From: Chloroflexota bacterium | Lineage (GTDB): Bacteria; Chloroflexota; Anaerolineae; Anaerolineales; UBA11858 | Direction: 5' to 3' | Assembly (NCBI GenBank): GCA_018648225.1 | Contig: JABGRQ010000064.1 | Coordinates: 1 to 49,911 of the forward strand | Length of the DNA stretch: 49,911 bases | In this document: positions 1-11,048 of the stretch, one piece after another | How the letters are laid out: every line of letters begins with the position of its first letter | Numbering within the stretch: the first letter of the stretch is position 1 | Notes under the pieces: model-generated | Seen by the model: the letters and a program-made list of their open reading frames with translations, nothing else | Databases searched by the model: none | Told to the model about the DNA's origin: nothing | Position numbers and translations under genes: made by a program

Positions 1-177
1 GCTCATCAGGGCTACCAGAAACTCCAGTACCTTTGTCTGTGGTTTATGACGATACACCTTTTGTTTCAGCGGAACTGCCTCGAGGGCTTTCACCAGCCCG
101 GTTTCCTGTGCAAACTGGCCCCAGGCCACCAAAAATGCGTGCTGGGTCTCGAAAACTTGCTCGTTATTTTTGCTCAT
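1..177 (-). CDS. Transposase, N-terminal fragment (cut by window edge)
   Basis: An open frame runs from an ATG at 177 to the left edge of the window, giving 59 residues starting MSKNNEQVFETQ and including VLEFLVALMS. A strong ribosome site (GGAGGGG) lies just upstream on the minus strand. The pattern, a short N-terminus followed by VPLKQK and KTxVLEFLVALMS, resembles the start of DDE transposases of the IS4/IS5-like groups that are frequent in Chloroflexota; this is recognition from memory, not a search. The catalytic part is outside the window, so the family cannot be fixed. Its position at the very edge fits an assembly break at a multicopy insertion sequence. Confidence 0.55.
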   Translation of the reverse strand, partial: MSKNNEQVFETQHAFLVAWGQFAQETGLVKALEAVPLKQKVYRHKPQTKVLEFLVALMS

Positions 178-318
178 GGCCCCTCCAATTTTCCGGATTG
201 AATAGGCCACAAGCATAACGGGTCTGTATTCAGTTGGTAATGTTCAAATAATCTTGTGTTCTATGACCGTTTTTTGCGATCCGGTCTCTGATTGCGCAAC
301 ACTTACGTTAGGAAAGAA

Positions 319-1785
319 ATGAAGTATATTATTTATGATTCTTCAATGCTGAAATATCAGCTAGCCAATCATGAGTCAGGTCAGTGTGATTGCGATTGCG
401 ACTGCGCCTGCGCTGTTACCCCCTGCGCCGACTTCACCACGGCTGATTTTACAGGTACCTGGCGCGCGGTTGATGCCCAAATCATCCCCTTTTCAGATGG
501 CTGGCAAGGCATGTTCACACCCGGCGGTTTTGTTCCGTTGGCGGTTCTCAATCCTTCTGCCTACGATCTCTGGACGCGCTTTCAACAAACCCAAAATATT
601 GACTTACTCAATTTGTCAGAAGAAGAAACCCAGGCCGCCCTCGAAATGGCCTCCGCCGGATTGCTGGTGCCGCAAACTGAACAATCTTCAACCTTCAACC
701 TTCAACCTTCTGCATTTCTCTCCGCCTGGCTGCACCTCACCGACCGCTGCAACCTGCGCTGCGCATACTGCTACCTGCCGCATGTGCGCGAAGATATGAC
801 CGCCGAAACCGGTCGTGCTGCCGTGGATGCTACCTTCCGCTCGGCGCTGGCGCATGGCTATGAAACCGTCAAGCTCAAATACGCCGGTGGTGAGCCGTTG
901 CTGCGCTTCCCGTTGATTTTGGAATTGCACCAATACGCCCAACAACTTGCCGAAGAATATAATCTTGAACTTGACGGTGTTGTGCTTTCTAACGGAACCC
1001 TGCTCACCGAGGCAATCATCACTAATCTCCAATCCCACAACCTGCGCTTGATGATTTCCCTCGATGGTATGGGCGACTGGCACGATACGCAACGTCCGTA
1101 TGCCGGAGGGCGTGGCACGTTCCAGGATGTCGCCGAAGCGGTGGAATTGGCGCTTGACCATGCGCTTGTGCCGCATATTTCGATTACCGTCAGTGGGCGT
1201 AATGCTGAGGGTTTGCCAGCGATCATCGCCTGGGTGCTGGAGCGGGATTTGCCGTTCAGCGTTAACTTTTACCGCCAGAATGATTTATCCGTCACACACA
1301 CGGATTTGAAACTCGAAGAAGAAAAAATCATCGCTGGGATGCTGGCGGCTTTTGATGTGATCGAAGATACTTTGCCGGAACACAGTTTGCTGGCATCATT
1401 GACCGACCGGGCTAACCTGGCTGTGCCGCATGAGCGCACTTGTTCAGTCGGACACGATTATCTGGTCTTCGACCAAAATGGACGCGTGGCGAAGTGCCAG
1501 ATGATGATGAATGAGGCAGTCGCCGATGTCCATACCGAAGACCCATTGCAACGGATCCGCACTGACCAACTTGGCGTACAGAATATCTCTGTGGAAGAAA
1601 AAGCAGGCTGCCGCGACTGCGACTGGAAATTCTGGTGTGCGGGTGGATGCCCCCTCGAAACGTTCCGCGCTACGGGGCGCTACGATGTTCAATCTCCCAA
1701 TTGCAATATTTATAAAGCCATATTCCCCGAAGTTTTACGTCTCGAAGGCTTGCGCCTGCTGAAGCAAGCTGGCGAACTCGCCTGA
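319..1785 (+). CDS. Radical SAM/SPASM peptide-maturase-like protein with Cys-Asp rich N-terminus
   Basis: A 488-residue protein. The radical SAM motif C144xxxC148xxC151 (CNLRCAYCY) binds the 4Fe-4S cluster that cleaves S-adenosylmethionine. The C-terminal SPASM region has C375, C393 and a C431xxC434x5C440x3C444 cluster for auxiliary Fe-S centres. Residues about 60-135 (LNPSAYDLWTRF and following) look like a PqqD/RRE-type peptide-recognition fold. Residues 23-36 are a run of alternating Cys and Asp or Ala (C23, C25, C27, C29, C31, C36), which is not standard for the family. Proteins of this type usually modify ribosomal peptides, but no precursor gene is visible nearby. The ATG at 319 has AGGAAAG just upstream and is preferred to a TTG at 292. 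A heptamer repeat encodes part of the linker before the SAM domain. The substrate is unknown. Confidence 0.8.
   Translation: MKYIIYDSSMLKYQLANHESGQCDCDCDCACAVTPCADFTTADFTGTWRAVDAQIIPFSDGWQGMFTPGGFVPLAVLNPSAYDLWTRFQQTQNIDLLNLSEEETQAALEMASAGLLVPQTEQSSTFNLQPSAFLSAWLHLTDRCNLRCAYCYLPHVREDMTAETGRAAVDATFRSALAHGYETVKLKYAGGEPLLRFPLILELHQYAQQLAEEYNLELDGVVLSNGTLLTEAIITNLQSHNLRLMISLDGMGDWHDTQRPYAGGRGTFQDVAEAVELALDHALVPHISITVSGRNAEGLPAIIAWVLERDLPFSVNFYRQNDLSVTHTDLKLEEEKIIAGMLAAFDVIEDTLPEHSLLASLTDRANLAVPHERTCSVGHDYLVFDQNGRVAKCQMMMNEAVADVHTEDPLQRIRTDQLGVQNISVEEKAGCRDCDWKFWCAGGCPLETFRATGRYDVQSPNCNIYKAIFPEVLRLEGLRLLKQAGELA
686..710 (+). repeat. Heptanucleotide tandem repeat (CTTCAAC) inside the radical SAM gene
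   Basis: Three exact copies of CTTCAAC (686-692, 693-699, 700-706) plus CTTC. Three heptamers make 21 bp, so the reading frame is kept; the array codes for STFNLQPS in the linker between the PqqD-like and radical SAM domains. Confidence 0.85.
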
Positions 1786-9863: not shown

Positions 9864-11048
9864 ATGAGCAATATTCGTTTCGACCACATCAAAGTGAAAA
9901 ACCTGCACGAATATGCTGAGCGCGTGCTGGGGAGCGCCCAACCCGGGCAGTTTATCCCAATTACCATGCAGCGCGCCCTGGCGCACGCCAACAATCCCTA
10001 CGCCGCCAAAGACGATATCGCCTTGCTCGTCGCTATCGACGCAGATGAAGAAGTTGTTGGCTTCTTCGGGATTTTGCCGCTCTTGCTACGCCGCGGCGAA
10101 GAGCTTTTCAAAGTTCACTGGTTTACCACCTGGTCGGTTTCGGGCAAGGTGCGCGGTCAGGGCGTTGGGGCGCAGCTCATGGCTGAAGCGCTCAGCCTCA
10201 AGCTGGATTACCTCATCGTGGGCAGCATCCATGCCCGGCGGGTGTGCCAAAAATATGGTTTTTGGGAGCGAGCTCCGCTGCATTATTACTGGCTGGATGC
10301 TACCGGCATGGGGCATCTCAATCCGCTGGTTTGGCTGCGCCGCGGGATGCGAAAAATGGTACATCTGCTGCGGATCAAGCGCGAAGTCCCCCTGAAGACG
10401 AATTTTATAAAACGCGTGGATAACTGGTTTGCCCCCTGGACGAAGAAGATTATCTACCAAATATTGAGCGGCGCGGCGGACTCACTTCTGGCGGGTGCCC
10501 GCCTTGAAGAGGTGACTCGTCTTCGGGAGGCGTCTACCACCCCCGAGCCGCGTCCGAACGTCGAACTCCACCGCGGCGCGGACGCGGTCAACTGGATGCT
10601 GCACCACCCCTGGATCGTAGATGAAGGCCAATCCGTCACAGAGCAAATGAAATATTATTTTACCGATACACGCCCTATGTACCGCATCTTTGGGGTGGAA
10701 ATCACCTCTCCGGAAGGTGAGTATCTGGGATTTGTAACTTTTTCAATTTCTCGCAAATCAGTGGACAGTGTTTTTCTAAAAATGCTCGATTATCAATTTG
10801 CCCGCCGCGAAGACAGGCGTTATGCGTTTGCATTGGCGTTGCGTTACGGACGGCAGCATCAGGCCGATACGATTGAAATTCCGCAAGAAATGGCGCAATA
10901 TCTGCGCCCGCGTTGGCTGCGAAAATTATTATTGCATTCCAAAGCGCGCATCTACCAGTGTATGCCCAAAGCTGACGACAGCCCCCTAGCGCAGGCCTGG
11001 GAAGATTTGGTCTTCAAGCTGGTGGATGGCGATATGGCGTTTTCGTGA
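9864..11048 (+). CDS. GNAT-fold acetyltransferase-like protein
   Basis: A 394-residue protein. The first half carries an acetyl-CoA binding pattern VRGQGVGAQLM (near residue 98) within a GNAT fold (LLVAIDADEEVVGFFGILP before it, then HARRVCQKYGFWERAP). The second half (from about 230, NVELHRGADAVNWMLHHPWI) looks like a second, degenerate acyltransferase-type domain, an arrangement reminiscent of FemAB/CelD-like proteins of envelope polysaccharide pathways. The frame stays open upstream to 9783, but that part resembles noncoding sequence and the -10 element sits just before 9864. A polysaccharide deacetylase follows, which supports a role in surface-glycan modification, an inference only. Confidence 0.72.
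   Translation: MSNIRFDHIKVKNLHEYAERVLGSAQPGQFIPITMQRALAHANNPYAAKDDIALLVAIDADEEVVGFFGILPLLLRRGEELFKVHWFTTWSVSGKVRGQGVGAQLMAEALSLKLDYLIVGSIHARRVCQKYGFWERAPLHYYWLDATGMGHLNPLVWLRRGMRKMVHLLRIKREVPLKTNFIKRVDNWFAPWTKKIIYQILSGAADSLLAGARLEEVTRLREASTTPEPRPNVELHRGADAVNWMLHHPWIVDEGQSVTEQMKYYFTDTRPMYRIFGVEITSPEGEYLGFVTFSISRKSVDSVFLKMLDYQFARREDRRYAFALALRYGRQHQADTIEIPQEMAQYLRPRWLRKLLLHSKARIYQCMPKADDSPLAQAWEDLVFKLVDGDMAFS

Follow-up and report, generated by a model that had tools for sequence, protein, structure and literature searches.

An Asp-Cys tail fused to a radical SAM/SPASM enzyme of Chloroflexota as a candidate substrate tethered in cis

Introduction

Close to one end of contig JABGRQ010000064.1 (C64 in our numbering) of a Chloroflexota bacterium of the class Anaerolineae lies a gene for a radical SAM enzyme whose N-terminus is unusually rich in alternating aspartate and cysteine residues. 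The window analysed here is the whole stretch of 49,911 nucleotides from base 1 of this contig. An earlier note, made from the letters of the DNA alone, had taken the N-terminal stretch to be either a peptide substrate or a metal-binding tail fused to its own modifying enzyme. The question raised by the locus is what such a repeat does in front of a radical SAM/SPASM enzyme. In the present work the protein was compared with its relatives at the level of sequence, predicted structure and gene neighbourhood.

Results

The first part of the window contains the following features (positions in the window, strand in brackets):

1-177 (-): putative transposase, N-terminal part, at the contig edge; translation MSKNNEQVFETQ...; no Pfam match
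310-316 (+): Shine-Dalgarno-like AGGAAAG before the ATG, from the sequence
319-1785 (+): radical SAM/SPASM gene, 488 amino acids, stop included; mean pLDDT of the AlphaFold2 model 90.6
319-342 (+): leader-like N-terminal beta strand MKYIIYDS, residues 1-8; strand 4-6 in both models, hydrophobic positions 4 and 5
385-426 (+): Asp-Cys repeat CDCDCDCACAVTPC, residues 23-36, the proposed tethered core
400-405 (+): nearly invariant Asp28-Cys29; columns at least 90% conserved in both alignments (A3 and A4)
448-681 (+): RRE (PqqD-like) domain, residues 44-121; solved-structure matches mostly RiPP RRE domains
715-1248 (+): radical SAM core with CX3CX2C at residues 144, 148 and 151 (748-771); PF04055, E 1.6e-13
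1441-1728 (+): SPASM domain, Cys 375, 393, 431, 434, 440, 444 and 462; conservation, fold as in CteB and anSME

From the N-terminus, the protein thus consists of a short hydrophobic strand, the Asp-Cys repeat, the RRE, the radical SAM core and the SPASM domain. The repeat holds six cysteines in 14 residues. The start codon is the ATG at 319; the listed alternative, a TTG at 292, lies upstream, and the Cys block is inside the protein with either start. As the first Met past the block is residue 67, within the RRE fold, the start codon is to be placed 5' of the Asp-Cys stretch.

Pfam detects the radical SAM core and, besides it, only a weak Fer4 match in the window protein. Among 61 homologues, C144, C148 and C151 are invariant, and the seven SPASM cysteines are invariant or at least 90% conserved. 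Both the catalytic cysteines and the repeat are intact in the window copy. The Cys-rich stretch that the earlier note had placed within 319-430 is therefore real. The full radical SAM plus SPASM enzyme that it had described was confirmed by the PF04055 match, the conserved cysteine sets and the fold match to CteB and anSME, and its PqqD-like domain was borne out by the fold, although this RRE has no Pfam HMM match in the window protein. The protein has the radical SAM core, the seven-Cys SPASM domain and the RRE by which RRE-dependent radical SAM/SPASM maturases of RiPPs are recognized.

The AlphaFold2 model, which was built on the 61 homologues, is confident overall (pTM 0.91), with a disordered Asp-Cys block: the tail has a pLDDT of about 50 and is not predicted to be ordered within the active site. 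The best match of the full model among solved structures is CteB (PDB 5wgg/5why; Z 29-30, residues 51-478), followed by anSME, ChlB and TigE. Residue 2 of CteB pairs with residue 51 of the window protein, so that the Asp-Cys tail is an additional segment relative to CteB. When the N-terminal 127 residues were folded alone, RRE domains of unrelated RiPP enzymes were matched with Z values between 4 and 8 (ThcOx 7.9, TigE 7.7, MccB 6.5, TbiB1 5.9, the PbtF RRE 5.5, PqqD 4.6; the list also includes NisB, TbtB, TruD/LynD and CteB). Each single Z value is modest, and it is the uniformity of this list that identifies residues 44-121 of the modelled protein as an RRE domain.

A strand at residues 4-6 is predicted in the full and in the N-terminal-only model. 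In 71 aligned sequences position 4 is hydrophobic in 87% and position 5 in 97% of the cases, typical forms being PLLLT, PVILW and KILF. Since the isolated N-terminal model contains no other sheet, pairing of this strand with the RRE is implied by the prediction. Leader peptides bind RREs by such strand pairing.

The nearest NCBIfam models are PapB, Nif11-type, QhpD, DynA and other peptide-modifying radical SAM/SPASM families. All of them score far below their cut-offs, for example 140.7 bits versus 340 for PapB (NF047865), 113.1 versus 453 for QhpD, 87 versus 425 for SCIFF and 60.4 versus 370 for FxsB (TIGR04269), and the window protein therefore falls outside every named NCBIfam family. No Cys in residues 23-36 is followed by an Asp four residues downstream, as a CX3D substrate motif would require. 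A viperin-like antiviral radical SAM enzyme was considered and rejected: the weak pVip match is limited to the radical SAM core, and an RRE and a SPASM domain are present.

At a threshold of E <= 1e-40, homologues were found in 71 of 396 genomes of the class and in 44 of 400 genomes drawn phylum-wide, other classes included. In all, 107 homologues were gathered together with their flanking DNA. DC is present in 86 of the 96 sufficiently complete N-termini and DCAC in 64; when each N-terminus was shuffled in 1000 rounds, DC appeared in a mean of 28 and a maximum of 40 of the 96. The N-terminal alignment covers residues 1-127 in 71 sequences taken from all over the Chloroflexota. Column identity averages 16%, and no columns but M1, D28, C29 and A81 are conserved to at least 90%. 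At position 29, 70 of the 71 sequences have Cys; at position 28, 64 have Asp and 5 have Glu. In the N-termini, a Cys follows an Asp 170 times and an Ala 100 times, the latter mostly at the second Cys of DCAC. Because D28 and C29 are nearly invariant in an otherwise variable region, what is kept is, as far as aligned sequences tell, specifically the Asp-Cys pair and not Cys-richness in general. The stretch is thus neither missing from the relatives nor freely varying in them, and the repeat seems to be a conserved working part of the protein and not the quirk of a single sequence.

The number and the place of the copies vary. An N-terminus contains between zero and four DC copies, most relatives having one to four, typically as DCAC. 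Common forms are EDDCACPD, occurring twice about 25-30 residues apart, QDCACAD, GDCAC after DCDC, and NDCAP; some groups of relatives have NDCR or NEC/DEC instead. Members with just one N-terminal Cys exist as well (L146, L148-L150). Scored as 0, 1 or 2+ copies of DCAC, copy number changes 21 times on the tree, a count that truncated N-termini inflate somewhat. In L043, extra DCAC copies stand 3' of the RRE, beside the radical SAM core. The distance from the repeat to CX3CX2C is usually 105-150 residues and shrinks to about 40, 23, 20 and 52 in L052, L068, L161 and L073, respectively; to judge from length and sequence, the space left in these four is too small for an RRE, which they appear to have lost while keeping the DC motif. 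The nearest relative of the window protein on the tree (L007:3062-3370) keeps DCDC, and an unrelated-looking segment takes the place of its RRE.

None of the 1,150 other gene models around the 107 homologues, all 60 amino acids or longer, contained the Asp-Cys motif. Furthermore, a search of ORFs of at least 20 amino acids in the first 64 loci gave no detached Asp-Cys peptide except for one ORF in L083, which was rejected as it is antisense to a MurJ-like gene.

The neighbourhood of the relatives was analyzed at those 85 loci that extend 3.5 kb or more upstream of the gene. At 77 of these, a same-strand gene from one large STAND-NTPase similarity cluster ends at most 1.5 kb upstream, the median gap between the STAND gene and the radical SAM gene being 66 nt. 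Among the remaining eight loci, L124, L125, L126, L128 and L129 have a convergent STAND gene just downstream. The adjacent gene encodes a STAND ATPase with TPRs (TPR_12 in 34 of 40, AAA_16 in 32 of 40, a periplasmic-binding domain in 5 of 40), and the next gene out a second STAND-type ATPase with EAD7 in 7 of 67 and, in some cases, TIR, CHAT/C25 caspase-like, trypsin, bDLD1 or VWA domains. Domain calls in these operons include AAA, NACHT and NB-ARC. NLR-like conflict systems are composed of such parts (PMC7159879, PMC8195603). Judged by gene order and domain content, the relatives are encoded in STAND-NTPase conflict operons, and we regard this link as firm at the level of the family.

Several individual loci of this type deserve mention. 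At ten loci, e.g. L064, L071, L072, L093 and L095, a GNAT acetyltransferase gene separates the STAND-TPR gene from that of the radical SAM enzyme. In L089, an SPFH/Band_7 gene (9968-10747, +) directly follows the radical SAM gene, and L009 has a similar-looking ORF that lacks a Pfam match. The STAND-TPR protein of L009 (4094-7744) and four others carry a periplasmic sugar-binding-type domain that is inserted after the beginning of the STAND ATPase, ahead of the TPRs. The (DC)n-rich member without an RRE in L161 (963-8472) adjoins a type ISP restriction-modification enzyme, a setting that is likely a defence island. In a scan of contigs, matches were obtained in Chloroflexota and in one MAG labelled as an archaeon (L006, JAJRWK010000132.1), in which a close relative with 66% identity stands in the same type of operon; this MAG is probably a misbinned or mislabelled member of the Anaerolineae. 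No close viral or plasmid homologues were found.

In the window itself, the radical SAM gene starts 140 bp after an ORF that, following the earlier note, we take to be a putative transposase and that runs off the contig edge. This is the place where the relatives carry the STAND-TPR gene. A search of the window's genome with the STAND-TPR proteins of two close relatives gave generic TPR matches and no close partner, which is weak evidence for absence since STAND-TPR proteins diverge fast. The STAND partner is either encoded past the contig end or has been split off from the radical SAM gene by an insertion. The contig edge and the putative transposase also explain why the earlier note had missed the operon. 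For the window copy, whose contig starts at the putative transposase, a coupling to STAND proteins would follow by analogy with the operons of the relatives.

Discussion

We propose, with a probability of roughly 60%, that the Asp-Cys tail is a RiPP-like substrate tethered in cis, such that leader, core and enzyme reside in one polypeptide. The N-terminal hydrophobic strand would dock on the RRE sheet of the protein itself, as a leader does, so that the Asp-Cys repeat would be offered to the active site of the radical SAM/SPASM enzyme. There the invariant cysteine would be modified, most likely to a Cys-based crosslink, our leading guess being a thioether between Cys and Asp or Glu. The modified tail, still attached or after cleavage, may then be sensed by the product of the neighbouring STAND-TPR gene, a switch protein, either as a ligand or as a signal of state, in the setting of an NLR-like conflict operon.

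Several observations favour this proposal. The order of strand, Asp-Cys repeat, RRE, radical SAM core and SPASM domain follows the logic of leader, core and maturase in one chain. The motif was not found detached in neighbouring gene models, and its copy number shifts on the tree as is expected of repeat cores. It also persists where the RRE has apparently been lost, and a tethered substrate could do without an RRE. The similarity to CteB, the nearest solved structure, supports by analogy a peptide-crosslinking reaction. Other points count against the proposal: PapB, which among thioether enzymes is the closest HMM match, requires an Asp or Glu downstream of the Cys, the low-confidence tail is not placed in the active site of the model, and the genome of the window shows no close STAND partner. 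Of the two readings offered by the earlier note, the peptide substrate has thus become the better supported, the motif being conserved, fused, repeated, mobile, preceded by a leader-like strand and not found detached nearby, with the modification itself a prediction; the metal-binding tail fits less well with single-Cys members and with the drift of copy number and position. The remark of the note that no separate precursor is visible holds across the relatives as far as the Asp-Cys motif goes.

Comparison with known systems helps to delimit what may be new. CteB is the thioether-forming maturase of SCIFF, a six-Cys peptide, and QhpD makes thioethers between Cys and Asp or Glu. As in CteB, RRE, radical SAM and SPASM share a single chain in the window protein. 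In contrast to CteB, which starts at the RRE and acts on the separate SCIFF peptide, about 45 extra residues precede the RRE here, and these contain the leader-like strand and the Asp-Cys repeat. PapB forms thioethers between Cys and Asp or Glu on a separate substrate, with the acidic residue downstream of the Cys at spacings of 0-6, and a transposed D...C peptide is not processed (PMC9413430). The residues enriched in the tail, Cys and Asp/Glu, are those joined in the products of PapB and QhpD, whereas the proposed substrate is fused and not separate. However, the Asp stands ahead of the Cys here, and no CX3D occurs in the window repeat; with Asp then Cys as the invariant order, the reaction of PapB is not simply transferable.

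The closest organizational parallel is, by analogy, the FxSxx-COOH/FxsB branch of the VMAP ternary systems, in which a radical SAM/SPASM enzyme and a separate peptide accompany an AP-ATPase-TPR protein (PMC7159879). Both are conflict operons that pair a radical SAM/SPASM maturase with AP-ATPase/TPR switch proteins. Of the 40 STAND-TPR partners, 10 are hit by NF040586, the TPR model of the FxSxx systems, and 23 by the HaaT TPR model, largely via their TPRs. Unlike the FxSxx systems, with a separate gene for a peptide ending in a C-terminal FxSxx and with a metallopeptidase, the peptide proposed here is fused to the enzyme. Fusion of a precursor to its own autocatalytic modifying enzyme is found in the borosins (OphMA; PMC7878506), which resemble the self-modification proposed here, whereas their enzyme is an unrelated methyltransferase with a C-terminal core and ours a radical SAM enzyme with a proposed N-terminal core. 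In the literature open to us outside subscription, we found no description of a radical SAM enzyme that carries its substrate in the same chain and no account of an Asp-Cys-fused radical SAM family in STAND operons.

Four other explanations of the tail have to be weighed. It may be a metal or Fe-S ligand and not a substrate, capping an open auxiliary SPASM cluster site or regulating redox state or assembly. Acid-Cys repeats do resemble metal-binding tails, and seven conserved SPASM cysteines may, by established SPASM chemistry, leave room for a thiolate at one of the auxiliary clusters, which a single Cys of the tail might cap. We nevertheless consider such a role unlikely: variable copy number, placement on either side of the RRE and single-Cys members are unlike a fixed chelating site, a site that moves as in L043 being hard to reconcile with a fixed ligand, and the leader-like strand ahead of the repeat is left unexplained.

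The enzyme may instead act in trans, on the STAND partner, an effector or a foreign protein, with the tail as a pseudosubstrate that shuts the active site until it is displaced. The tail does occupy the place of leader and core, and the operon supplies obvious partners in trans; these partner proteins lack the Asp-Cys motif, however, so that there is nothing visible to mimic, and the repeated copies resemble cores more than inhibitors. We therefore give this alternative a small chance. That the tail stays unmodified and is a docking epitope for the TPRs of the adjacent STAND protein, with catalysis serving something else, appears very improbable. TPRs bind short peptides, and the STAND-TPR gene is the most constant neighbour, yet docking would leave both the RRE and the leader-like strand unexplained, and the motif is kept in the window although the partner was not found in its genome. 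Finally, a low-complexity accident or a mis-called start can be set aside, even if CD repeats can arise by slippage and a second start is listed, as the conservation of the motif in 70 of 71 sequences, far above the shuffled controls, already refutes it, the alternative start is upstream and there is no Met between motif and RRE.

Returning to the tethered substrate, we would go one step further only as a speculation in which we place little confidence: the enzyme may modify its own tail continuously, the STAND-TPR switch may read how far the tail is modified, which would depend on SAM, reductant and intact Fe-S clusters, and an infection that disturbs these may release the NLR-like response. 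Any purpose of the modification, a part in immunity among them, is an inference.

Overall, if the proposal is correct, the family would comprise radical SAM maturases of the RiPP type that carry their own core, a natural single-chain arrangement of leader, core and enzyme in which substrate recognition would be freed from a separate precursor. It would also tie radical-based modification to the NLR-like STAND switches of Chloroflexota, few of whose triggering ligands are known. The chemistry at the Asp-Cys pair and the question of what triggers these switches may thus both be addressed with one protein.
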